A program made the translations under genes and the position numbers. From assembly GCF_000003195.3 (NCBI RefSeq), contig NC_012879.2, positions 21,672,844-21,736,843 on the forward strand: DNA of 64,000 nucleotides. Reading direction: 5' to 3'. A model generated the notes under the pieces. The model was given only the letters and a program-made list of their open reading frames with translations, was not told the origin of the DNA and ran no database searches. This DNA is from Sorghum bicolor (Eukaryota > Streptophyta > Magnoliopsida > Poales > Poaceae). Positions 5,337 through 64,000 of this stretch are shown one piece after another. The stretch's first letter is position 1, and the number at the start of each line of letters is the position of its first letter.

Positions 5337-5436
5337 NNNNNNNNNNNNNNNNNNNNNNNNNNNNNNNNNNNNNNNNNNNNNNNNNNNNNNNNNNNNNNNN
5401 NNNNNNNNNNNNNNNNNNNNNNNNNNNNNNNNNNNN
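5337..5436. other. Assembly gap, 100 N
   Basis: Exactly 100 N, the usual placeholder for a gap of unknown size. The left terminus of the CACTA element whose right end is at 46855 should lie in this gap, because typical CACTA subterminal sequence begins directly after it. Confidence 0.95.
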
Positions 5437-19969: not shown

Positions 19970-19981
19970 TGGTATCAGAGC
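19970..19981 (+). other. Primer-binding site, initiator Met tRNA
   Basis: tggtatcagagc two bases after the LTR end, the standard PBS of plant copia elements. Confidence 0.95.
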
Positions 19982-26302: not shown

Positions 26303-28243
26303 GTGAATATAAAAGGAATTCGAAGCTTTCTTGGCCATGCTGGTTTTTATCGTAGATTCTTAAAAGATTTTTCATTTATTGCTAGACCACTTACTCTTTT
26401 GCTAGCCAAGGATGCTCCTTTCGAATTTGATGATGCATGTCTAACATCTTTCAATTTATTAAAGAAAGCACTCATCTCTGCACCAATCATTCAACCCCCT
26501 GATTGGTCGTTGCCTTTTGAAATTATGTGTGATGCTAGTGATTATGCTGTGGGGGCAGTATTGGGACAAACTAAAAATAAGAAGCATCATGCAATTGCTT
26601 ATGCCAGTAAAACTTTGACAGGAGCTCAACTTAACTATGCAACCACTGAAAAAAAGCTTCTGGCTGTTGTCTTTGCCATTGATAAATTTAGATCTTATTT
26701 AGTTGGAGCTAAAATAATTGTTTACACTGATCATGCTGCACTAAAATATTTGCTCACTAAAAAAGATGCTAAACCTCGCCTGATTAGATGGATCTTATTA
26801 CTCCAAGAATTTGACTTAGAAATAAAAGATAAAAAGGGAGTAGAAAATTCTGTTGCTGATCACTTGTCTAGAATGTATTTTAAGAATCCACAGGAAACCC
26901 CCATCAATGATTCACTCCGGGACGACATGCTCTATGGGATTAACAGGTCTGACCCCTGGTATGCAGATATTGTTAATTTTATGGTTTCAGGGTATGTACC
27001 ACCAGGAGCAAACAAGAAGAAGCTTATTCAAGAAAGTCGTTCACATATATGGGATGAGCCATACCTCTTCCGAGTATGCTCTGATGGCTTACTCAGGAGA
27101 TGTGTGACCACTGAGGAAGGATGGAAGATCATCGACAGATGTCATTCATCACCATATGGAGGTCACTATGGAGCATTCCGTACACATTCAAAGATCTGGC
27201 AGTGTGGATTCTATTGGCCTACAATGTATGAAGACACGAAGCAATATATCATAAGATGTGGGCCATGTCAAAGGCACGGAAACATAAATACAAGGGATGC
27301 AATGCCACTCACCAACAACCTTCAGATTGAGCTCTTTGATGTCTGGGGAATAGACTACATGGGTCCATTTCCTCCATCAAAGAAGTGCGAGTACATCTTG
27401 GTGGCAGTTGACTATGTCTCCAAGTGGGTAGAGGCATTACCTTGCAAGCATGCCGACAACGTCAGTTCAAAGAGGATGTTTGAAGAAATTATATTTCCAA
27501 GATTTGGAGTCCCCAGAGTAGTGATAAGTGATGGAGGAGCACACTTCATCGACAAACGCTTCAAGCAATATCTATCAAGACATGGAATCCGTCACAACGT
27601 CGCTACCCCCTATCATCCTCAGACAAGTGGCCAAGCAGAGACTTCCAACAAACAAATCAAGAATATTCTTCAGAAGACAGTAAATGAAATGGGAACGGCG
27701 TGGAAAGACAAGTTACCCGATGCACTCTGGGCATACCGGACAGCATACAAGACCCCAATTGGAATGTCTCCATACCAATTGGTGTACGGGAAGACTTGCC
27801 ATCTACCTGTTGAACTAGAGTTCAAAGCACACTGGGCCATAAAGAGATGGAATATGGACCTAGATGTTGCTGGAGATTATAGAAGAATGCAACTATCGGA
27901 ATTGGAAGAATGGCGAGAAAAGGCATATCATAATTCAAAGATTTACAAAGAAAGAGTCAAGAGGTGGCATGACAAGGGAATCAAGAAGAAGGAGTTCACA
28001 CCCGGAGATAAGGTATTACTTTTTAATTCCAGGGTGAAGCTTTTCGGGCATGGAAAACTCCGGAGCAAATGGGAAGGACCATTCAAGGTAATCAATTCAT
28101 CATCCCACGGAGCTATCACACTTCAAAACAGCGAAGGTACGTTATTCAAGGTAAATGGTCAACGTTTTAAATTATTTTTAGAGCCCAATGTGGAATTTGA
28201 AGAAATAGACGTAGTCCATTTTTACCTTCCCATGGAGAATTAG
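26303..28243 (+). CDS. Athila RNase H and integrase (C-terminal part of Pol)
   Basis: 646 open codons. RNase H (residues about 70-190) degrades the RNA template; its acidic residues are D77 in [10 protein letters not shown] in [13 protein letters not shown]143 in [10 protein letters not shown] and D186 in SVADHLSRM. Integrase inserts the cDNA. Its zinc-binding H281, H288, C319 and C322 ([10 protein letters not shown] ... CGPCQRHG) are present. The catalytic triad is complete: D351 (WGIDYMGPF), D410 (ISDGGAHF) and E446 (SGQAETSNK), with 35 residues between D410 and E446. A C-terminal GPF-x-V DNA-binding region follows (WEGPFKV, about residue 600). There is no chromodomain. All key residues are intact although the upstream frame is broken; translation from residue 1 is unlikely in nature because it is the tail of the polyprotein. 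Confidence 0.95.
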
Positions 28244-50163: not shown

Positions 50164-51681
50164 TGAAAGGATCAAGATGCCCAAGAGGGGGTTGAATTGG
50201 GCTTCTCTAAAAATTTAAGAAACCTATAAGCTCCAATTCAACCCCTTGTGCCTAGTGTGACCTAGAGAGCTACCGGATAAAAAGTTTTGCAACCTAGTTC
50301 CAATCCTATTCTAGCATGGCAATTCTAAGAATGTAAAAACACAAAGTAAATGCTAGAATGTAAAGGAGTAGTGGAAGAAAGTGCTCGGCGATGTTTTGCC
50401 GAGGTATCGGAGAGTCGCCACTCTCCACTAGTCCTCGTTGGAGCACCCGCACAAGGGTCTTGCTCCCCCTTGGTCCGCGCAAGGACCAAGTGCTCTCTAC
50501 GGGCTGATTCTTCGACACTCCATTGCGGTGAATCGCCCAAAACCGCTCACAAGCTTGACACGAGCCACCCACAAGAACTCCGTGCGGTCTTCGTGCCTCC
50601 AATCACCACCGAACCGTCTAGGTGATGGCGATCACCAAGAGTAACAAGCAAAGAACTCTCACTTGACCCAAACAAGGCTCTAGAGAGTGGTGGATGCACA
50701 CTTGACTCTTGGAATTCACTAGAGAAGGATTCTCTCAAGAAATCACTCAAATCTCAATCTTCTCTAGGCTCTTGCTGCTCTCTTGCTCCACAACAAGTTT
50801 CTCAGATGTTCAAATGGGCAAGAGTGCTCTCATGGACGAGGTGGAGGAGTATAAATACACCCCACGAAGTCCAAAGGTCAGCCAACCGTTTTCCACTGAA
50901 AACGGGGTCACCGGACGCTCTTTATGTTGCACCGGATGCTCTGCACCAAGCGTCCAGTGCTCTGTAACGGCTAACTGTACCTGCGTCTGACAGGTCACCG
51001 GACGCTAACTCTCAGCGTCCGGTGGCACCGTCCAGTGCTCCGGGAAGTTTTACAAACTCCCTGAGTATGGGACCAGACGCTACTCGTGTGTCCGGTGCAA
51101 GCGTCCGGTGCTTAGGGGAAGTTTACAACCTCCCTGGGTGTGGGACCAGACGCTGCCCGGTGAGTCAGGTGCCAGTGTTTGGTGCCTAACCCTAGTCACT
51201 GAAGACTCCCAACGGCTAAGGACCTCACAGGACGACTCACAGAAGCGTTCGGCAGCTTCCGGTGCCCCCTTGGGCACCCTAACTTTCGTCGAAACACGAT
51301 CGCTCCAAAACGAAGTTGGTTCCTCTCGATGTAAGGAGTATCTCTGAGCTGCGTAGTGCTAGGTTTACCAAGTGTGCATCACACCTAAACCTAAAGCCTT
51401 GCCTAAGTCAAGCTCCTAGATCAAATCCCCTCTTAATAGTACGATCAAAGGAAAACAAAGTCCTAAACTACTCTAAGTGCCCTTCTTCACCATATGACAC
51501 TTAGACCTAGTCTAGTCTTGACGATGTCCATCCATCCTTTGAAAACCGAAACGATTTCCACTATTAAGTAGGCATGTATGTCACCTTACCTATGACTTTG
51601 CCTCTGCAAAACACACGTTAGTCATAGTAATCAACATTGTCATTAATCACCGAAATCACTAGGGGCCTAGATGCACTTTCA
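50164..51681 (-). repeat. 3' LTR of the third Sirevirus-like element
   Basis: 1,518 bases. Shares with the LTR at 466-2845 the edge block (ccaagagggggttgaat against ctagagggggggtgaat) and the accaagagtaacaagca segment. A CACCGGAC/GTCCGGTG array occupies 50905-51265. Two AT boxes (tatttata on the minus strand near 50851-50858) could be the promoter. Confidence 0.85.
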
Positions 51682-52016: not shown

Positions 52017-52873
52017 TGTAACACCCTAGGTGTTAAGCATGCACTTAGTCTCATCAAAACATTCATAAGCATTCTCATCAAGCATAGCATCACATGAGCA
52101 TGTCATCCATTCAAAGTGTGATTTTATGTGCTTTATTTTGTGTGAATTAAATGTGTTAAAAATATTATGCTTGCTTTTAAAATTGTGAAATATTCAAATT
52201 AGGTTGAATAGTGTGCAAAAAGGCTTAAGAGTATTTTTGTGAAATTTTTGGAGCCATAGGATTTGAGAAATGGAATTTATATAAAAATCCCTAAAATGAA
52301 TTTATTTAAAAACCTAGAACTAGTTTTAATTTGTGATTCAAATTCTATTTGGAATTTGGCCTTGCTTATTAAAACAAAGTTGTAGGGTTTTTGTTTTGGA
52401 ACAAGTTTTATTTTGGGAGAAAAAGGTAAAAGTGATTTTTAAATAGTCCAAATGAATTTAGAAAGAATTTGAGAAAAGAAATTCAAAAAAAAGAGAAAGG
52501 GGACAGGCGCTGCTGGGCCGACCCGCCTCCCTTTCGGCCCAGCCAGCAGCGCGGCCCGCTTCCCCCTCCCCTCTCTCTCCCGTGCGCGGCGCCCGCCTCG
52601 CTCCACTCGGCGCCGGCCACGTGGCGGCCGTACGCCGGCGTTGGACGCGCCGCGGCCGACCGCCTTCACCTGGTCGGGACGCCGCCCCGCGCCCCCAGGC
52701 CGCTCCACTCCACTCTGTCGCCCACGCCTCCCTCTCTTCTTCCTCTGTCCGTGAGCGCAGCTACAGCCGTAGCAGCTCCGCCCGCGCCATCGCCGGAAAA
52801 AGCCCCGCCGCTGATCGCCGGTCGCGCCAGAGCCTCAACCTCGACGGTTGATTGAGGTAGGGGTCGAGCCTGT

Positions 52874-53435
52874 NNNNNNNNNNNNNNNNNNNNNNNNNNN
52901 NNNNNNNNNNNNNNNNNNNNNNNNNNNNNNNNNNNNNNNNNNNNNNNNNNNNNNNNNNNNNNNNNNNNNNNNNNNNNNNNNNNNNNNNNNNNNNNNNNNN
53001 NNNNNNNNNNNNNNNNNNNNNNNNNNNNNNNNNNNNNNNNNNNNNNNNNNNNNNNNNNNNNNNNNNNNNNNNNNNNNNNNNNNNNNNNNNNNNNNNNNNN
53101 NNNNNNNNNNNNNNNNNNNNNNNNNNNNNNNNNNNNNNNNNNNNNNNNNNNNNNNNNNNNNNNNNNNNNNNNNNNNNNNNNNNNNNNNNNNNNNNNNNNN
53201 NNNNNNNNNNNNNNNNNNNNNNNNNNNNNNNNNNNNNNNNNNNNNNNNNNNNNNNNNNNNNNNNNNNNNNNNNNNNNNNNNNNNNNNNNNNNNNNNNNNN
53301 NNNNNNNNNNNNNNNNNNNNNNNNNNNNNNNNNNNNNNNNNNNNNNNNNNNNNNNNNNNNNNNNNNNNNNNNNNNNNNNNNNNNNNNNNNNNNNNNNNNN
53401 NNNNNNNNNNNNNNNNNNNNNNNNNNNNNNNNNNN
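52874..53435. other. Assembly gap, 562 N, inside the 5' LTR
   Basis: The 3' LTR continues for 682 bases past the last shared position (63318) without reaching the sequence that follows the gap, so the missing part is longer than the N run. The 27 bases just before the gap (52847-52873) do not match the 3' LTR and are suspect. Confidence 0.9.
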
Positions 53436-55342
53436 ATGTTTTTGCTGGAATTGGAAAATGCACAGTAATCAAAATTTAACTCAGAAAAATATGAAACTTG
53501 TTTTGCTGGCTCTGCATGTATGATTAGTCACTGGAAAAATTTTGCTACACAATATTTGCTGAATAAATGAATTTATGGTGATTTAAATGCTTACATGGCA
53601 GTGGTTTATGATTTTTAATAAATAATTGGATCATGCAATTAATCTGGAAATTTTTGTGGGTGTTTCTTATGATAATAAGCAAATTATAAAAATATGAAAT
53701 CTGCTGTTTGGCACTTATACCACAGTAGAGTATTTATATTTGCTTTGTGAATTAATCTTGTGATTTTTGTAGCTCAAAATAAGTGTCCAAAAATTATGAA
53801 AAATTTATAGTAGACTTTATGTTTGACTGGTAGTCTCCTGTAATTTTTGTGGAATTTATTGATAAACATAAATGTATGCTAGTTTGGTAGGCCTAACATT
53901 GGATAAAGAAATTATGAATTGTTATATAGATTAAGTAGAATAAAAGGGGGTTTGGTGTATCTTTGAAGCATCTTGTGAGTTGGCTGGTTACACTTGAGGG
54001 CAATCTGTAGAAGAGAAGGGAATAGATGCTTAGTGTGTTTACATGTTCTTGGATGATGTTGACTACCTTGTAAATGACCACATAAATCATCTATGCACCA
54101 TGTCATATTCATCTGGTATTCTCTCGCATGTGCATTGCACCCCGGGCATCTCGCACTCCACTCATGAGCACCCATGCATCATACAGGCTCATAGGAGAAT
54201 GAGGTGGGACCTGAGGAGCAGGAGGAAGCACAGGAGCAGGAACCTCTAGGAGTGTCCGAGCCCAGAGAAGAGCTGCAAGAGTGTCCGGATCACAAGCCGA
54301 GCACGTTTGAGAAAGGCAAGCCTCGGAGCATTCTAAGTCTCTCTATTCTCGTTAACTTAAATAATATATTATGCTTGTTCTACTATGTTGCATTTAAGTG
54401 ATAGGAATTGCCTGATACCGTTGATGCATAAGTACTCCTTGATATCACCCCTTGTTTATCTACCTTATCCAATATAGATAGGTGCGGAGTCTATGCTTAG
54501 CCTGCCTAGTCCGGTAGAAGTCGGGTGATTTCCTGTCACCTGCGAGATATAGGTGGATACCTGCTTGATTAAGCGGTAATTGCTTTGGTAGAGAATAACG
54601 AAGTGTGGAATGAAATTTGAGACCGGACAGGGTCTTATGGTGGGTTGACTGTAGTGCCCCTGCCTGTGTCGATTACGGATCGATCGTTGACGGCCATTTG
54701 TCATGTTGAACGCATGCCCCACACTTAGCTGGAAGGATAAGTTGTTCCGACCGCGAAGCCTGAACACTATCCGGGCCGAGAGTCGAGCCGCCATGCGCTG
54801 TATTGGTGATGGTTGAGGAGAACGACGAGGGCGCGGCGCACAACCTTGGTATACCTTGGATACCTCAGTCGCCGGAACGGTCCTCGTGTACTGGCGGTGC
54901 CTGCCGAACCCGCGAATTGGTCCTGGATAGTGTAACACGGTGATCTGTAGCTCACTTGATCAGTGAGTGTGGTTTGTGTGGGGAATACCTCGCCAGCTGG
55001 TTAGAAATCGATTCGAATCGCCATCACTCCTGGACAGTGAGCACTTGACATGAGCCCTGTCCTCGTAGCAAGGACTATGGAACACTTGGGTTATAACGAT
55101 AAATGGTTTCATGAATACTATGATGAGGTACCATCATATTACTACACTTGCTTGTAATAGTACAGGTGCAAACCTAGATAATAAGTAATGATAATATTGA
55201 ACTTGAGCTAATTAAAAGAAGAAAGGTTTTTAGACTATGTTAGTGGAACAATGCTTTTATGCAAAAGTCTCAGCTACCCCACTATATAGCCTTCATGATC
55301 CTTGAAGAGTCTTTATTTTTGGTTTATGACGGGTAAGTCTAG

Positions 55343-55364
55343 CTGAGTACATTCTCGTACTCAG
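55343..55364 (+). other. Conserved LTR hairpin (chromovirus copy)
   Basis: ctgagtac, loop attctc, gtactcag, followed by ggttct. Same element as at 13765 and 39907 in the LARD-like LTRs. It lies about 450 bases before the LTR end, so it could be within the transcript (R or U5). Confidence 0.6.
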
Positions 55365-55815
55365 GGTTCTACTCCCATGTTGTTTTGCAGATGGTCAAAT
55401 GTACTATGGTTATTGCATCCTCTGCTTGTACCCAGCTATGGGCGATGACTAGACCAAGGGCGATCGTCACTCTGTCTTCTCTTTTGCTTTTGTGGGAATG
55501 ACCAAAACTATGGCACTGTATCAGACTAAGTTTGTGTGTGTTATTTTCGAACTATGAAGCTTCCGCTACTTGAGAACTTGGTTTGTAATAACTTTAAGCA
55601 CTCCGATGTATTTGATGGATGTTTTCGAACTGGATGTAATTGTGGATAGTGACCGCTAAACTTATTACGATCTTGGCTGTATGTACGATATGTGGTTTGA
55701 AATCCTTCGAGATTTCACGGACTACCGGGATTATATGGGCTTAAGCTCGATGGTTTGACTATGCAAATGGTCACTATTAGGCTTAATCTTTTATAATTTG
55801 GGCGGTTCTGTTACA

Positions 55816-56640
55816 GCTGGCATCGGAGCAAGGTTTAGCGAGTTACTGTTCTCATAAGTACGTTCTAAACTAAATTTAAACTGGTTTAATAAAAGATTTT
55901 TATTTATTAATGATAATCCAGGTGTCAAACTAAGTTTTTGGAAAACTATCTAGTGTGCAATGGTCATATCCTTTATGCCCAGTTAAGGACTCTAAGGTGG
56001 CTAGTTAAGTACTGACTTGGGGGTTAATGCATCATATTTCTATTTCGTCGCTCATACGGCGTGCAATAGTATGAGTACCATTCATTTGAATGGTAATGTA
56101 TGGATCAATTTTTCCCCTACGCCTCGGTAAGTGGGAGCTGTGAGAGCATGATCGGATACACTGCCGGTCTAGGGGAGTGTTGTTAGGTGCTGTGTCATGC
56201 ACACATGTTTGGTGTGCTTGGGAACAGTACCGCATGTTGGGAGATTCCATCCTGAGAGGCGATGCCATCATTAGGGTGATGATGTGGGTAGTAACACGTC
56301 ATATGCATGGACGGGGTGTCTGTGTATGTGGGGTGTATAGCTTTAAATTCTTGCTCTGCATGTTCATACTGTGGTTGGGCTGAAATGAGTTTTCTGCAGG
56401 TACACTAACCACGTTCCCGCTTAGAACGCTAGTTACGCTATGAGAGAACGCTGTCTGCCACCGCATATACCGTTTCGTGTTAACTTTTGTTTCTAAGTTG
56501 GTGAGATCATAAGTCCGTGCATGCATCATGTTCATTTCATATCATTGCTTACTTTCCCCCTTAATTTAATCTGTCCCAATTCCAATTATAACAATAAAAG
56601 ATAATCCTTAATCTTACCCAAGGTATTCCGTTTGCAGCAG
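55816..56640 (+). other. PBS and leader of the chromovirus
   Basis: tggcatcggagc at 55818-55829 is the PBS. The next 810 bases hold no gene. The leader ends in ccgtttgcag|cag directly before the ATG at 56641, which looks like a 3' splice site. Confidence 0.75.
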
Positions 56641-57684
56641 ATGTCACACACTAGGCTCACCGCTCGCAAGTCAACTGGTGGGTGGGCCCCTCGCCATCAG
56701 TTGGCAGCCAGGAGCTCGTGTCATAAGAGCAAGTTCCTAGAGGAGTTTGGGATGCCCACCTTGCTATGGAGGGTGCTCAGTTCTATGGGGTATCTGGAAG
56801 GAAGGGAACCTCGCTACTATTGGGACAAGGAGCAGCTTGGTGATGGGACCTTGGTGGGGATCGAGGCAGTGGTCCCTACCAGTGGAGGTGACCCCGCCTG
56901 GGGCGGCTGGGTGTACGAGTCCCGAGGTGCCATGCCTTTCCACGGTGCCAGCAGGGAAGCTTTCGCAGTTCTGAGGGACCTCATGGAGAGGTTTCCATAG
57001 GAGCTAGCCCACGCCTTCGCTGGGGTGTTTCCCCGGGGTGACCACTACACTTCAGTGTGGGATCAGTCCGAGGTGAATGCTCTAGAGAGGAGTGCGGATG
57101 AGGACCAGCACAGTGACAGCGCAGCTATGAGTGCTATGTACGCCTTGATGAAGACCTACGGGGGCCTGGAGCGTTGTTTGGGGCGCTTGTCCGGGTCTCT
57201 TCTCACAGTCCAGAATGAGAAGCGTCAGCTGCAGCGTGAGTTCGACACAGAGGTTGAGAGGCTGCAGGCAGAGTTGGCCCGCGTGACCCGAGAGGGGGAT
57301 CAGGCGGTCCAGAAGAACAGTGAGCTGAGTCAGAACCTACTTGCAGTTAGGGAGCAGAGGTACAGGGTGACTACTGCCCACAGGAACTGCGAGCACATGC
57401 TAGTTCATGTGCTTGGTCAGCGGAATGAAGCCTGGCACGAGGAGGACACCCTGAGGGCCCGACAGCTAGAGCTTGAGCAGCAGCTAGCTAATGCTGAGGA
57501 GTACAATGAGAACTTGCACGAGGAGATCCACCAGCTGCATAATCAGCTCCACCCTCACCACCTACCTGGAGCAGCTGAGCTAGACTCTGAGGACGAGATG
57601 GATGAGGATCCAGAGATAGAGGCAGCTGCTAGTGGAGATGAGGACGAGGAGGGTTCCGGCATGGACAGCGACCATAGCGAGTAG
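56641..57684 (+). pseudogene. Additional chromovirus ORF with a histone H3-tail-like N terminus, coiled coil and acidic tail
   Basis: 347 codons plus stop, interrupted by one TAG at 56998; the frame continues unchanged after it. Residues 1-22 align from the initiator Met with the H3 tail: TARKSTGG (residues 7-14) is identical to H3 T6-G13, then APR, QLA are kept, with K14 to W and K18 to H. In total 16 of 22 positions match. Residues about 30-125 form a compact region with strongly aromatic segments (LLWRVLSSMGYLEG, GWVYESRGAMPFHGASREAF) that vaguely recalls a dsRNA-binding fold. Residues about 175-300 form a long coiled coil. The last 33 residues are very acidic, as in histone chaperones. 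Function unknown; histone mimicry or histone handling is inference. The ATG is chosen because it aligns with the H3 start and follows a splice-acceptor-like site. Confidence 0.75.
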
Positions 57685-58009
57685 ATGCTAGGGCTCTAGA
57701 GCTAGTCCTTCTTCTTTTGTTATTTATGTTGCATGGCATGTCTTGTACTTTTGGATCTGGGCTATGTAAAACTTTATGAGATGACGCTAAAAGTCTAGTG
57801 TATGTATGCTGGCAATTTTGGATGTATGCGAGAACCTTGTTGCTTGAATGTTACGTAATCTATTAGTGATGTTGTATGCGGATGATGAGTTGTTTTGCCT
57901 TTGTTTATTGTGCGAATTTATTTCCTCAGTAAATTCAGTACGGCATAATTCTACACATGTCTACCGTTGATGGCAACTCCTAACGATTGCTTATCATTGA
58001 CGCATACAG
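57685..58009 (+). other. Spacer between the extra ORF and gag, probably intronic
   Basis: 325 AT-rich bases without open frames, ending in gacgcatacag directly before the gag ATG. Together with the similar site before 56641, this suggests that splicing decides which ORF comes first on the mRNA. Confidence 0.5.
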
Positions 58010-59088
58010 ATGGTGCAAACACGTGGCGGGGGTAACAGCAACCCGGCTCTTGGAGCAGGTACCTCCGGAGGTGGGGCTCGACGGAATTAGGACAGAGTAC
58101 CATCACCGCCACCACCACCACCTCCTCCGTACACTGCGGACGTGTTCTTCGCGCAGTTTCTGGGAAGTCAACGCAATATGGAGCAGATGCAGCACAACAT
58201 GGAGGAAGCCCTGCGCAATATCGCTGACAACACCCGCCGTGGGGATAACCAGGGCGGCCGTGAAGCCAATCAGTACAGCTCTTTCAAGGACTTCATTGAT
58301 ACCAAGCCACCCGTCTTCAAGGAGGCTTTGGAACCGCTCAAGGCGGATGACTGGATCAACACCATGGAGCAGAAGTTCCGTCTTCTTCATATGACTGAAG
58401 AACTTAAGGCTGAGTATGCGGCACATCAGTTGCAGGGACCTGCTAGGATTTGGTGGTCCCATCACCGTACCACCTACCCAGAGGGGACCCCGATCACCTG
58501 GAACCGCTTCACCACCGCTTTCCGGGGAAATTACATTCCTCCAGGCGCGGTCGAAATGAAGGTTGGGGAGTTCATGAGGCTGTCTCAGGGAACGACGGTT
58601 GAGTATCTACACGCTTTCAACAATCTCGCTCGCTACGCCCCCGAGTTTGTGAACACGGAGGCCAAGAAGATCGCCGGTTTCTAGAGGGGTTTGAGCCCAA
58701 AGATGCTGAAAACCATGGGTACAGGAAGCCGGGCTACCTTCAATGCTTACATCAGTGACTGTCTGACCCAAGAGAACAATAACAACAACTATAGTGCATC
58801 CAAGTCTCGTAAGAGGGCTTTTGAAGCCGGGTCATCTCAGTCCAGGGCACTAGTGGCAGCGCGACAGCAGTATCGTCCTCCTGCCCCAGGTGCTAGGTTC
58901 CGACCGCCACAGAGGAGGAACACCGGGCATCCAACGCAACAGAAGCCGTACAAGGTGGCGATAGCTCCTGCCAAGCCAAAGGCAATTCAAGCTGCAGCCC
59001 CTGCCGCCAATAATGCGACCAAGGGTCCATGCTACAATGCCACAAGATGGGGCACTTTGCTAAGGAATGTCCCTAACCCAAGAGGCAA
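58010..59088 (+). pseudogene. Chromovirus gag
   Basis: Start MVQTRGGGNSNPALG, then a proline run (PSPPPPPPPPYTADVFFAQF). The retrotransposon Gag domain follows: the KPPVFKEALEPLKADDWINT segment, FRLLHMTEELKAEYAAHQLQ, ARIWWSHHRTTYP, FRGNYIPPGAVEMK and a VEYLHAFNNLARYAPEF segment. A zinc knuckle is expected at the C terminus; around 59030-59075 the order C-Y-N, H-K-M-G-H-F-A-K-E-C can be traced only with a one-base loss, and a stop follows. Further stops are a TAG at 58088 and a TAG at 58682. Gag forms the virus-like particle. Arginine/alanine-rich sequence between capsid and knuckle is usual for this lineage. Confidence 0.9.
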
Positions 59089-59091
59089 CAG

Positions 59092-62000
59092 ATGACCTAC
59101 CCAGCTCGAGTGCACCATACCTCGATAGAGGAGATCCCGGAAGGAGAACCGGTAACAGCTGGTATGTTTCCTGTCAACCAACATCTTGCAGTTGTTTTGT
59201 TTGATTCTGGATCATCGCATTCATTCATGAGCCAAGCATTTGCACAAAAGCATGATCAACTAGTTACGGATCTAGGTTATGGCTATCGTATCAGCTCAGT
59301 AGGGGCAGATGTGTTGACAAATAGAGTGGTCCGAGGGGCAACCCTGGATATAAGTGACCGGGTGTTTCGAGTGAATCTAGTAGTCATGCCTGGATTAGTT
59401 TTGGATGTTATCATGGGCATGAACTGGATGAAGGAATGGGATGCCGTCATAGATACTGGGAAGAGGGTGTTATCTCTGAGAGAACCCCTGGGCAGTGGAT
59501 CTTTTCAAGTACCTCTGCCCCGTCACTTTGACTTTGCTAGCATCTCTTGTGCTACGCATGTGGTTCCACTACGACAAATCCCAGTAGTCTGTGAGTTCCC
59601 TGATGTTTTTCCTGAGGAATTACCAGGACTTCCTCTAGATAGGGAAGTAGAGTTCGCAATAGAGTTGATACCAGGTACAACACCGATATCTAGAAGGCCG
59701 TACCGGATGCCGCCAAACAAACTCGCTGAGTTGAAGAATCAACTAAAGGAATTGTTAGATAAAGGGTTCATCCGGCCAAGTTCGTCAGAATGGGGTTGTC
59801 CGGCGTTGTTTGTGAAAAAGAATGATCAATCGTTGCGCATGTGCGTGGACTATCGTCCACTCAATGTGGTAACAATCAAGAATAAGTATCCATTACCAAG
59901 GATTGATATTTTGTTTGATCAGTTGTCCAAGGCAAAAGTATTTTCCAAGATAGACTTGAGGTCCGGGTATCACCAAATCAAAATCCATCCGCAAGATATC
60001 CCGAAGACTGCTTTTTCTACCAGACACGGGTTGTATGAGTATCTTGTCATGTCCTTTGGGTTGACGAATGCTCCTGCATACTTCATGTATTTGATGAATT
60101 CGGTCTTTATGCCAGAATTAGATAAGTTTGTTGTGGTGTTTATCGATGATATTCTGGTTTATTCAGAAAATGAGCAAGATCAAGCCGAGCATCTGAGAGT
60201 CATGCTAACACGACTGCGAGAGCATTAGTTATATGCAAAGATCAGCAAGTGTGAGTTTTGGTTGAAGAAAGTTCCTTTCCTAGGGCACATTCTATCTGAA
60301 GAAGGGATTGCTGTGGATCCGTCGAAAGTGCAGGAAGTCATGGATTGGAAGGCACCAACTTCTGTCTCGGAAGTTCGAAGTTTTCTTGGTCTGGCCGGGT
60401 ATTATCGTCGTTTCATACCCGACTTCTCCAAGATTGCTAAGCCAATGACCAGTTTGTTACAAAAAGATCATAAGTTTGTCTAGACGGAAGGGTGTGAGCT
60501 AGCCTTCCGCACCTTGCGAAAGTTGCTAACCACCGCTCCCGTTCTCGCACAACCCAATATCGAGAAGCCTTTTGATGTGTTTTGCGACGCATCGAAAAGT
60601 GGCTTGGGATGTGTGTTGATGCAAGATGGCAGAGTTATAGCCTACGCTTCATGGCAGTTGAGAAAGCACGAAGTCAACTACCCAACTCACGACCTCGAGT
60701 TAGCAGCAGTAGTGCATGCTTTGAAGATCTGGAGGCACTATTTGCTGGGAAATAAGTGTCATATCTACACCGACCATGAGAGTTTAAAGTATATCTTCAC
60801 ACAGTTCGAGCTGAATATGAGGCAACGAAGATGGTTGGAACTGATCAAGGATTACGATCTGGAAGTTCACTACCATCCAGGCAAGGCTAATGTGGTAGCA
60901 GACGCTTTGAGTCGCAAACCGCATTGTCAGGTGGTTCAACCTCTGTTTCAGGATGGTTTCAATCTAATGCATCCTGAAGTTTTATGTCACATACAGCTTA
61001 GTTGTTCACTTGAAAGCCAAGTCATCGAAGGTCAGAAAACAGACAAGGGTGTTTTCCACATCAAAGAGAAGATCAAAAATGACCCAAAGACTCAATTTAG
61101 AGTTGATGAAAAAGGGGTATTGTGGTTTCAGCACCGGCTGGTAGTTCCGAAGAATCGAGAATTGAAGAATCACATCATGGATGAAGCCCATCTCTCCAAG
61201 CTTTCCATTCATCCTGGCAGTAGTAAGATGTATCAAGACCTAAGATCTCACTTTTGGTGGACTAAGATGAAGAAAGAGATAGCAGCATATGTGTCCCGTT
61301 GTGACACGTGTTGCAGAGTCAAGGCTATACATATGAAACCTGCAGGTCTGTTGCAACCATTGTTAGTTCCAGAGTGGAAATGGGAAGAGGTCAGCATGGA
61401 TTTTATCACAGGCTTACCAACAACAGGAAAGGGGAATGACTCGATTTGGGTGATCATAGATCGATTGACCAAGTCGGTTCATTTCATTCCCGTGAAAACT
61501 CGTTACCGACCTCCCAAGTATGCGGATATATACATAGCTGAGATTGTTAGGTTACATGGCATTCCCAAAACCATCATATCAGATAGAGGACCATAGTTCA
61601 CCGCTCACTTTTGGGAGCGAATGCATAAGAGTTTGGGGACTAGTCTGATAAGAAGCACAGCGTATCATCCCCAGACCTCGGGTCAAACTGAAAGGTTAAA
61701 TCAGGTGTTAGAAGATATGCTGAGGGCCTATGTGCTATCATCCAAGGGATCATGGTAATCGTGGTTACCTTTGGCTGAATTCTCATACAACAATAGTTAT
61801 CAAGAGAGTATTAAGATGGCTCCGTTTGAAGCTTTGTATGGTCGTAAATGTAGAACTCCGTTAAACTGGATTGAACCTGGTGAAAGGAGATACTATGGCA
61901 TCGACTTCGTAAACGAAGCTGAAGAAAAAGTACAAATCATACAACAGCATATGAAGGCGGCACAGTCGCGACACAAGAGTTATGCCGATCGGCGAAGAAG

Positions 62001-62463
62001 GCCACTTGAATTTAATATAGGTGACTATGTATACCTCAAGGTTACGCCAATGAAGAAAGTTCAGCGTTTCCGAGTTCGAAGCAAGTTTGCACCCAGATAT
62101 GTGGGACCATATCAGTTACTGGAAAGAAAAGGCCATGTAGCCTACAAGATTCAGTTACCTGAAGAGTTGAGTTCAATCTTTCCAGTCTTTCATGTGTCCC
62201 AGCTACGTAAATGTTTGAAAGTACCTGAGCAAAGGATTGAACCCTGAGGAATCAAAATAAAGGTAGACTTAGAGTATAAAGAGCAGCCAGTGGGAATCGT
62301 AGATACCAAGGAACGAGTAACCCGAAACAGAGTTGTCAAAACATATAAGGTGGTGTGGAGTCATGATGATGATAGGGATGCCACCTGGGAAACCGAGGAT
62401 TACCTGAAAACAGTTTATCCAAAATTTCATAAGAAATGGTTAGTAACCCAAATCTCGGGATGA
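59092..62463 (+). pseudogene. Chromovirus pol: protease, reverse transcriptase, RNase H, integrase, chromodomain
   Basis: One frame with five internal stops (60226, 60481, 61594, 61756, 62245). Protease: D in [12 protein letters not shown] and IMGMNWM. Reverse transcriptase: [59 protein letters not shown] and the active site FIDD in [11 protein letters not shown] (about 60140). RNase [39 protein letters not shown]. Integrase: H-H-C-C ([11 protein letters not shown] region to CDTCCRVKA), D in [11 protein letters not shown] in IISDRGP, E in SGQTERLNQ. After GPYQLLERKGHVAYKIQLP and VFHVSQLRKC comes the chromodomain (about 62260-62450). Adjacent extra ORF and gag belong to the same element. Non-functional as it stands. 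Confidence 0.95.
62248..62463 (+). other. Chromodomain at the C terminus of integrase
   Basis: Frame of pol after the TGA at 62245: VDLEYKEQPVGIVDTKER, then VVKTYKVVWSHDDDRDATWE and EDYLKTVYPKFHKKW. The Y-x-x-x-x-V/L-x-x-x-W pattern and the ATWE-x-E strand-helix transition are those of retrotransposon chromodomains. In this family the module is thought to steer integration to heterochromatin. Many plant copies lack part of the aromatic cage that binds methyl-lysine, and the W at KVVW and the W at ATWE are the only clear aromatic candidates here besides the early Tyr. Confidence 0.85.
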
Positions 62464-62470
62464 GATTTCC

Positions 62471-62485
62471 CTAAGGGGGGAAGGG
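62471..62485 (+). other. Polypurine tract of the chromovirus
   Basis: ctaaggggggaaggg directly before the 3' LTR; the LARD-like element has ttaagggggagggt at the equivalent place. Confidence 0.85.
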
Positions 62486-62486
62486 C

Positions 62487-64000
62487 TATAACACCCTAGG
62501 TGTTAAGCATGCACTTAGTCTCATCAAAACATTCATAAGCATTCTCATCAAGCATAGAATCACATGAGCATGTCATCCATTCAAAGTGTGATTTTATGTG
62601 CTTTATTTTGTGTGAATTAAATGTGTTAAAAATATTATGCTTGCTTCTAAAATTGTAAAATATTCAAATTAGGTTGAATTGTGTGCAAAAAGGCATAAGA
62701 GTATTTTTGTGAAATTTTTGGAGCCATAAGATTTGAGAAATGGAATTTATATAAAAATCCCTAAAATGAATTTATTTAAAAACCTAGAACTAGTTTTAAT
62801 CTGTGATTCAAATTCTATTTGGAATTTGGCCTTGCTTATTAAAACAAAGTTGTAGGGTTTTTGTTTTGGAACAACTTTTATTTTGGGAGAAAAAGGTAAA
62901 AGTGATTTTTAAATAGTCCAAATAAATTTAGAAAGAATTTGAGAAATGAAATTCAAAAAAAAAAGAGAAAGGGGACAGGCGCTGCTGGGCCGACCCGCCT
63001 CCCTTTCGGCCCAGCCAGCAGCGCGGCCCGCTTCCCCCTCCCCTCTCTCTCCCGCGCGCTGCACCCGCCTCGCTCCACCCGGCGCCGGCCATGTGGCGGC
63101 CGTATGCCGGCGTTGGACGCGCCGCGGCCGACCGCCTTCACCTGGTCGGGACGCCGCCCCGCGCCTCCAGGCCGCTCCACTCCACTCTGTCGCCCACGCC
63201 TCCCTCTCTTCTTCCTCTGTCCGCGAGCGCAACCGCAGTCGTAGCAGCTCCGCCCACGCCATCGCCGGAAAAAGCCCCGCCGCTCACCGCCGGTCGCGCC
63301 AGAGCCTCAACCTCGACGCCAACACCACCATCGCACTCGCCTTCGCCGCGGTAAGCCGTTGCGTACGCTCTACCGAGGTGAGAAGGCGTCGTACGCCGAG
63401 AATCGCTCGCCGGAGTTGCTCCGACCTCGCCGGAGAGCTCTGCCGCGTCGGATCTCGCTAGATCCTACCTCTTTTCGCTCGCTCTTTGGCGCGTTAGGTC
63501 CGTAGTTCGATGAGGAAGCTCGGAGGAGCACTTGCGCGCGCTCTACCGCACCGGAGCAGGCTGGCCACGACGAGTAGCGCCGCCGTGCCACCATGCATGC
63601 TCGTCGGGGGTGCTCCGGTCATCCTCCGGCCGATCCAAGGGCACCCTGGGTGCGCCTCGCTGCGGGGAGCACGCTGGTGCTCACCCCGTGGCCGGAGACC
63701 TCGCCGTCGGCGAGAGCCGGCCAGCCCAAGATCGGCCGGGGTGCTGCATGGCTGACCAGTGGGTCCACGACCCCTAGAACCCACCTGTTAGTGCCTCTGC
63801 GGGTGTGGATCTGGGTGAATCCAGCGTTTTACGTTGATTTTCTTAAATAAAGATTTTCCAGAAATTGATTTAAATCTTGTAAAATCTGTATCTTGAGTTA
63901 TATGGCTCCAAAATTGGTGAAACAAATTTTGGTGCGGTCTCCGTTCTCAGATCTACAGTTTGATGTAATTGCATGTCAAGTTTGAACACCTTTTCTGTAT
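62487..64000 (+). repeat. 3' LTR of the chromovirus, cut by the window end
   Basis: Starts tataacaccctagg (the expected TG is TA) and follows the 5' LTR closely to 63318. From there it supplies the sequence hidden by the gap in the 5' LTR. Open frames in the GC-rich block (62909-63784) occur in five or six frames at once and are not supported as genes. Confidence 0.9.

Follow-up and report, generated by a model that had tools for sequence, protein, structure and literature searches.

An H3-like N terminus on the ORF0 protein of RIRE3/Retrosat2-like retrotransposons and its possible role as a K9-bearing decoy

Extra ORFs of grass chromoviruses and the element in the window

Some extra ORFs of Poaceae chromoviruses are reportedly described as partly similar to a histone H3 gene, with transduction suggested, in an abstract from 2011 (Steinbauerova et al., Genetica, doi 10.1007/s10709-012-9654-9), which is said to mention a LONELY GUY-like domain as well. 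The bare H3 similarity of these extra ORFs is probably in print already. For the LONELY GUY-like domain, Steinbauerova et al. 2011 is cited in the available text of PMC9289625. ORF0 of the grass Tekay elements is itself known, according to the accessible portions of PMC3485330 and PMC11728184, and the word "histone" is absent from the main text of both papers. In the open-licence literature, as far as its accessible text goes, our search found no paper stating the H3 similarity, the K9/K18 pattern described below, a comparison of families or a decoy model; the present analysis adds the pattern residue by residue, its comparison in four families, a test for selection and an account of the exon structure and splice-site context.

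Other accessory proteins of mobile elements offer partial parallels. The anti-silencing aORF proteins of VANDAL elements have the role that we propose for ORF0, that of an accessory protein acting against silencing, and an extra-ORF protein has been likened to a double-stranded-RNA-binding fold with TM scores of 0.35–0.37 (both in the available part of PMC11728184). Element class and mechanism nevertheless differ between the VANDAL proteins and ORF0. The VANDAL proteins, VANC among them, are not known to be similar to H3.

Mimics of the H3K9 site carry an ARKS/T-type motif outside histones; examples are influenza NS1, ATF7IP and the site at which G9a methylates itself. In these cases the motif is short, whereas ORF0, a transposon protein, resembles H3 in a single register that begins at the N terminus and spans 23 residues. 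Closer in its target is the geminivirus protein TrAP, which acts on SUVH4/KYP and is, as proposed for ORF0, a product of a plant genetic parasite directed at the H3K9 methylation branch; TrAP binds the SET domain and is not described as a copy of the H3 tail in the accessible text of PMC4606454.

The stretch of DNA analysed here, 64,000 nucleotides long and called the window throughout, contains a Ty3/gypsy element with the following features, all on the plus strand:

52017–64000, plus: Ty3/gypsy element with long LTRs (domains, LTR comparison, translation)
52017–55815, plus: 5′ LTR of 3.8 kb, with a run of N inside (52874–53435)
55816–56640, plus: leader with 23 upstream ATGs, ending in TTTGCAGCAG, which abuts the ORF0 ATG and resembles a 3′ splice site
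55818–55829, plus: primer binding site (PBS) TGGCATCGGAGC (pattern match)
56641–56712, plus: H3-like tail of ORF0, Met and H3 positions 1–23
56641–57000, plus: first open part of ORF0, 119 codons to a TAG (translation, relatives)
57001–57684, plus: remaining ORF0 frame, with a coiled-coil-like region and an acidic C terminus (translation)
58010–58698, plus: gag start region, its frame interrupted by stops (translation, tblastn to relatives)
59092–60228, plus: pol, protease and reverse transcriptase (Pfam RVP_2, 5.1e-25; RVT_1, 1.2e-27)
60514–61596, plus: pol, RNase H and integrase zinc-binding region (Pfam RT_RNaseH, 2.8e-34; Integrase_H2C2, 3e-17)
62246–62440, plus: integrase chromodomain-like stretch VVWSHDDDRDATWETEDYL, 3′ of a stop (translation, by eye)
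62487–64000, plus: 3′ LTR, ending at the window edge (LTR comparison)

The borders of the 5′ LTR were set by eye (start TGTAACACC, end GTTACA, with the PBS next), the PBS presumably being of the tRNA-iMet type, and the chromodomain-like stretch is, as judged by eye, probably a type II chromodomain. The LTR pair is 96.7% identical over 830 aligned positions (52019–52846 versus 62489–63318), which points to a fairly young copy, and the ORF0, gag and pol frames are all interrupted. The coiled-coil Pfam matches in 57001–57684 were weak and below the cut-off; a relative at another locus (L010) has the same region.

In the described Tekay elements (RIRE3, RIRE8, Retrosat2, SorSat2, Sb7) the extra ORF, named ORF0 or aORF, lies between an LTR of >3 kb and gag. 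The window shows the same arrangement, with a sense ORF0 frame at 56641–57684, broken in this copy, between the 5′ LTR and a gag that starts at 58010, next to an LTR of more than 3 kb and a gypsy-type pol with reverse transcriptase, RNase H and integrase domains (the chromodomain by eye). A grass-like host, a gypsy gag-pol and an ORF without a Pfam match above the cut-off are likewise common to this locus and to the published elements, as given in the parts of PMC3485330 and PMC11728184 at hand. By ORF position, LTR length and the type of pol, the element would be RIRE3/Retrosat2-like.

Elsewhere in the window, a second PBS-like site at 19970 (TGGTATCAGAGC) and an integrase-like stretch at 27740–27820 (by eye) come from another LTR element; a 70-base direct repeat, 80% identical with a spacing of 73, lies upstream of the 5′ LTR at 51017–51159, and a run of N at 5337–5436 adds to the one within the 5′ LTR.

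The H3-like start in the window and in other copies

The ORF0 of the window begins with MSHTRLTARKSTGGWAPRHQLAAR (56641–56712), which after the Met is identical to H3 at 15 of 23 positions, ungapped and in register from Met1. TARKSTGG is exact, and K4, K14, K18 and K23 are replaced by R, W, H and R, respectively. A phmmer search of the PDB sequence set found 132 matches with E≤10, the best being H3.8 (E 1.1e-4), and the best 60 of the 132 were all H3, H3 peptides, H3 variants or chimeras. The composition-based chance of the tail register was 2.7e-14; when all window ATGs followed by 24 open codons were compared (n = 803), 802 had 0–5 identities to H3 and ORF0 had 15. An H3-like tail in register from Met1, with chance as a poor explanation, is what the sequence-only reading had described, and both points were borne out, chance similarity being ruled out by the composition estimate together with the 803-ATG comparison. 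The same reading had treated 56641–57684 as one ORF, which does not hold, as an in-frame TAG at 56998–57000 breaks it.

Residues 1–23 of H3.1 and H3.3 align without gaps to ORF0 in the three families called A, B and C below, in all of which K14, K18 and K23 are replaced. Unlike the histone, ORF0 has no histone fold match and continues with other sequence after residue 23: the H3 similarity ends at residues 24–30, and no histone fold was found by Pfam after the tail, which ruled out that ORF0 is a histone. A single-sequence model of its first 119 residues reached a pLDDT of 50 and gave no Foldseek match at E≤1e-3; the tail is the lowest-confidence part of this poor model, whose weak helix-strand-strand-strand-helix order was not counted as evidence.

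All copy data come from one genome (709 Mb, 846 contigs). In a search with ORF0 residues 1–119, a query that contained the tail, 150 of 2318 candidates were scored and 90 copies of family A were read (30 + 60, the window copy included). The H3-like tail was present in all 90 copies selected in this way, with exact TARKSTGG in 82, K9 in 89, and both S10 and G13 in 90 of 90. Position 4 was R in 87 copies and position 23 R in 90, position 14 was mostly R (64 copies; W 16, other 10), and at position 18, H was found in 88 copies, R and Q in one each and K in none. The commonest form of the tail (28/90) was MARTRLTARKSTGGRAPRHPLAAR, and 67 of the 90 copies had 16–18 of 23 identities to H3, compared with 15 in the window copy.

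As a control for the tail in the query, we searched with the ORF0 core only and scored 150 of 2157 candidates, of which 5 belonged to family B (96–100% identity) and 145 were A-like (56–59%). Among the core-selected N termini read, the tail and K9 were present in 20/20 and exact TARKSTGG in 18/20; position 18 was mostly R (13 copies; H 6, G 1), the R18 copies forming a subgroup of family A (L145–L148, L150–L152, L154–L156, L158–L160). One of these 20 places was also among the matches of the H3-tail search described below. The tail as an oddity of a decayed window copy was ruled out by its presence in the 90/90 and 20/20 copies. More intact relatives without the H3-like start, which the sequence-only reading had named as a sign of coincidence, did not turn up: all 90 carry the tail and 67 are nearer to H3 than the window copy. 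Its list of replacements (K4 to R, K14 to W, K18 to H) is right for the window copy; among the other copies, position 14 is more often R than W, and position 18 is R in most core-selected N termini.

In one family A copy (G000:C7:41976573-41976866, with the N terminus at L143) the ORF0 core lies within an open frame of 1345 codons, possibly ORF0 continuing into gag-pol. One scan each of a viral and a prokaryote contig collection gave no ORF0 relative.

A search of the genome with the H3 tail, in which 150 of 1113 candidates were scored, placed H3 genes in its top rows, and 35 lower-ranked loci (L106–L140, one place occurring twice) comprised 31 ORF0 starts and 4 exons from genes or pseudogenes of the H3 type. 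At L121, L122 and L133 lie H3-like genes, or pseudogenes, that contain introns, and two of these have unusual tails (MARTKSTARNSTGGK... and MARTKCTARKSTGGK...). The tail is common to four ORF0 families, A to D. Family B (L117–L119) has an ORF0 of 349 residues starting with MARTKQTARKSTGGRAPRGQLAPR, identical to H3 through G13. The one open ORF0 read in family C (L123; L125 is broken) has 155 residues and starts with MARTRQTARKSTGGRVPRHQLASR, having lost the core and kept the tail. The C gag is 40.6% identical to that of the window. When it was used as a query (150 of 6730 candidates scored), 95 matches had 87–100% identity and 55, which make up family D, had 75–77%; the gag-selected members of family C carried the tail MARTRLTARKSTGGRVPRHQLASR in 3/3, with 161 bases read in each. 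In the two family D copies read, the N terminus is MARQKQTPRKRTGPKGVPRHQLAPR, with T3Q, A7P, S10R, G13P and one residue extra, and it is clearly the same tail as in the other families; both copies have gag-pol frames of 1511 codons. Among the C and D elements, apparently young groups, many have a gag-pol reading frame free of stops (1499 and 1511 codons).

Taking one representative per family, T6, R8, K9, T11, G12, P16, R17, L20 and A21 are kept in 4/4, and K18 is replaced in 4/4 (H, G, H, H). All four have R in place of K23; at position 14 three have R and one retains K, and at position 4 K and R occur in two each. The A-R-K-S/T context of the lysine is present in A–C (TARKSTGG) and absent in D (PRKR).

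Constraint on the tail and its favoured origin

No part of ORF0 is better kept between families A and B than the tail, which has 18/23 identical residues compared with 49/95, 31/81, 25/93 and 19/45 in the other segments. One representative each of A, B and C gave pN 0.00 and pS 0.41–0.55 at codons 7–14, and other representatives gave pN 0 and pS 0.27–0.68, both over few codons; over codons 2–24, pS was 0.58–0.69 and pN 0.10–0.23. Across A, B and C the residues around K9 are conserved while the synonymous sites differ. Comparisons with D gave a pN of 0.31 at codons 7–14. Within family A, the comparison of shared with singleton changes moved N/S from 2.96 to 0.26 over codons 28–119 (p 3e-11), a sign of strong constraint there, and from 1.87 to 1.11 over codons 2–27, which was not significant (p 0.40); the tail varied mostly at H3 positions 2, 14, 17, 19 and 21–26. 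The constraint on the K9-equivalent and its neighbours that the sequence-only reading had asked about is suggested by the comparison of A, B and C; the D tail is altered, and within family A the test of codons 2–27 did not reach significance.

These data bear on the idea that an H3 exon simply hitch-hikes in the element, its similarity surviving from the youth of the copies. The age of the window copy, as judged from its LTRs, and the non-significant within-family result for codons 2–27 agree with such a neutral relic, but it is hard to hold, and in our view quite improbable, against a tail that is common to families with 40.6% identical gags and that, at a pS of 0.58–0.69 over codons 2–24, shows a pN of 0 at codons 7–14 in A–C. 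We take the tail to be old because the C gag is only 40.6% identical to the window gag.

It is possible, though less likely than not, that the relic of a captured exon now serves as a generic basic, disordered arm, for nuclear localisation or for binding nucleic acid or nucleosomes, without K9-specific recognition, on a coiled-coil, acidic-tailed protein. The ORF0 tail is basic and falls in the least confident part of the model, the grass 5′ aORF proteins are predicted to be nuclear in the available text of PMC11728184, and the K-to-R changes, including that at position 18 in 13/20 core-selected copies, retain the charge; the best argument is family D, in which the context of K9 has changed and the tail is still basic. 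A basic arm, however, requires no exact TARKSTGG, and families A–C keep codons 7–14 at pN 0 despite their synonymous divergence.

As to its source, we favour an ancient capture of an H3 exon, for which the exon structure and the upstream sequence argue. In three H3 genes of the genome (L099–L101), taken as H3.3-type because they bear introns, the match breaks directly after K23 and the next exon matches separately; the ORF0 similarity fades nearby. Only one of these three intron-bearing genes (L101, with gcag) has CAG immediately 5′ of its ATG. CAG directly precedes the ORF0 ATG at 100 of 105 distinct loci, compared with 12 of 1333 window ATGs (an earlier count of 106/112 included repeats and one H3-type gene). 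It abuts the ATG in the window and at L010, L026, L112, L116–L119 and L123, is one base off in family D (ctctacag followed by gATG), and a splice-acceptor-like CAG upstream of ORF0 was also seen at L167 and L168. At the eight loci whose leaders were counted (the window, L010, L026, L112 and L116–L119) there are 20–23 ATGs per 800 bases, and ORF0 probably needs a spliced leader. The CAG before the ATG and the ATG-rich leaders suggest that the exon was captured together with its 3′ splice site, which would give ORF0 its spliced leader. Comparison with the H3 genes at the DNA level did not distinguish an H3.3 from an H3.1 source because synonymous sites are too diverged. Convergent mimicry, a tail that evolved toward H3 and was not captured from it, would account for the fact that clear DNA kinship to any one H3 gene is no longer left, but 23 ungapped residues from Met1, an end near the H3 exon boundary and a splice-like start make it very unlikely.

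A possible decoy in the H3K9 methylation loop

The H3K9 mark is used by plants to silence such elements. The retention of TARKSTGG in three of the four families suggests molecular mimicry, and the pattern agrees with the earlier idea that ORF0 could recruit or titrate the enzymes that write H3K9 methylation or the proteins that read it. Our tentative reading, held at a little less than even confidence, is that the element captured the first coding exon of a plant H3 gene, perhaps of the H3.3 type, and that this exon now acts as a K9-bearing H3-tail decoy on the SUVH/CMT3 silencing loop. An ancestor of the grass elements would have captured the exon, possibly with its 3′ splice site, ORF0 would be made from a spliced leader, and removal of the Met would expose an N terminus starting with ART. 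SUVH enzymes of the KYP type would then bind ORF0 or methylate it at K9, and ORF0 would occupy proteins that write or read H3K9 methylation, CMT3/ZMET2 for example. The H3K9me2–CHG methylation loop that silences the element might be weakened in this process. An alternative outcome would be the placement of ORF0 and its cargo in K9-methylated chromatin.

Published data on these enzymes bear on this reading. The SET pocket of KYP holds H3 residues 1–15, and a geminivirus protein inhibits KYP (accessible text of PMC4606454). ZMET2/CMT3 reads H3K9me2 together with K18, the side chain of which lies in an acidic pocket, and it is not stimulated by an H3 1–17 K9me2 peptide, according to the available part of PMC9256654; for SUVH4, stimulation by H3K14ub was not detected in the portion of PMC8443253 at hand. 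Since K18 is replaced in every family, K9-methylated ORF0 might fill CMT3 without activating it through the K18 input, and the loop would be weakened in this way. The more specific version, a non-activating decoy that presents a K9 surface without K18, occupies CMT3/ZMET2 unactivated, takes up SUVH and uncouples the H3K9me2–CHG loop, seems to us unlikely. The non-activating part is weakened by R18, found in 13 of the 20 core-selected copies, because arginine is charged like lysine and may still be accommodated by the pocket of CMT3. Against the decoy in either version, drift could account for the replacement of K14, K18 and K23. Family D, altered and yet with long gag-pol frames, shows that some elements do without the precise ARKS context; this and the non-significant within-family result for codons 2–27 speak against a strict K9 mimic.

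A partner within the element itself is also conceivable. The integrase chromodomain could bind K9-methylated ORF0, which would connect ORF0 with the pre-integration complex or influence where the element integrates; a chromodomain-like stretch is present at 62246–62440, and type I chromodomains bind H3K9me in the accessible text of PMC6317226. The same text gives the chromodomains of seed-plant chromoviruses as lacking the aromatic cage motif, and the stretch in the window has, by eye, one of the three cage residues, so that we consider this reading improbable.

The elements concerned are numerous, with 2318, 2157 and 6730 first-look candidates for the ORF0 start, the core and the gag query, respectively. 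If ORF0 is an H3 decoy, as we tentatively propose, this would explain why these elements retain it, the function of the extra ORF would be directly testable with short peptides, and the tail would provide a natural H3 variant, with K9 and without K18, for dissecting the CMT3–SUVH loop. Should the decoy also prove to be non-activating, the grass chromoviruses would hold a transposon-encoded long mimic of the H3 tail.
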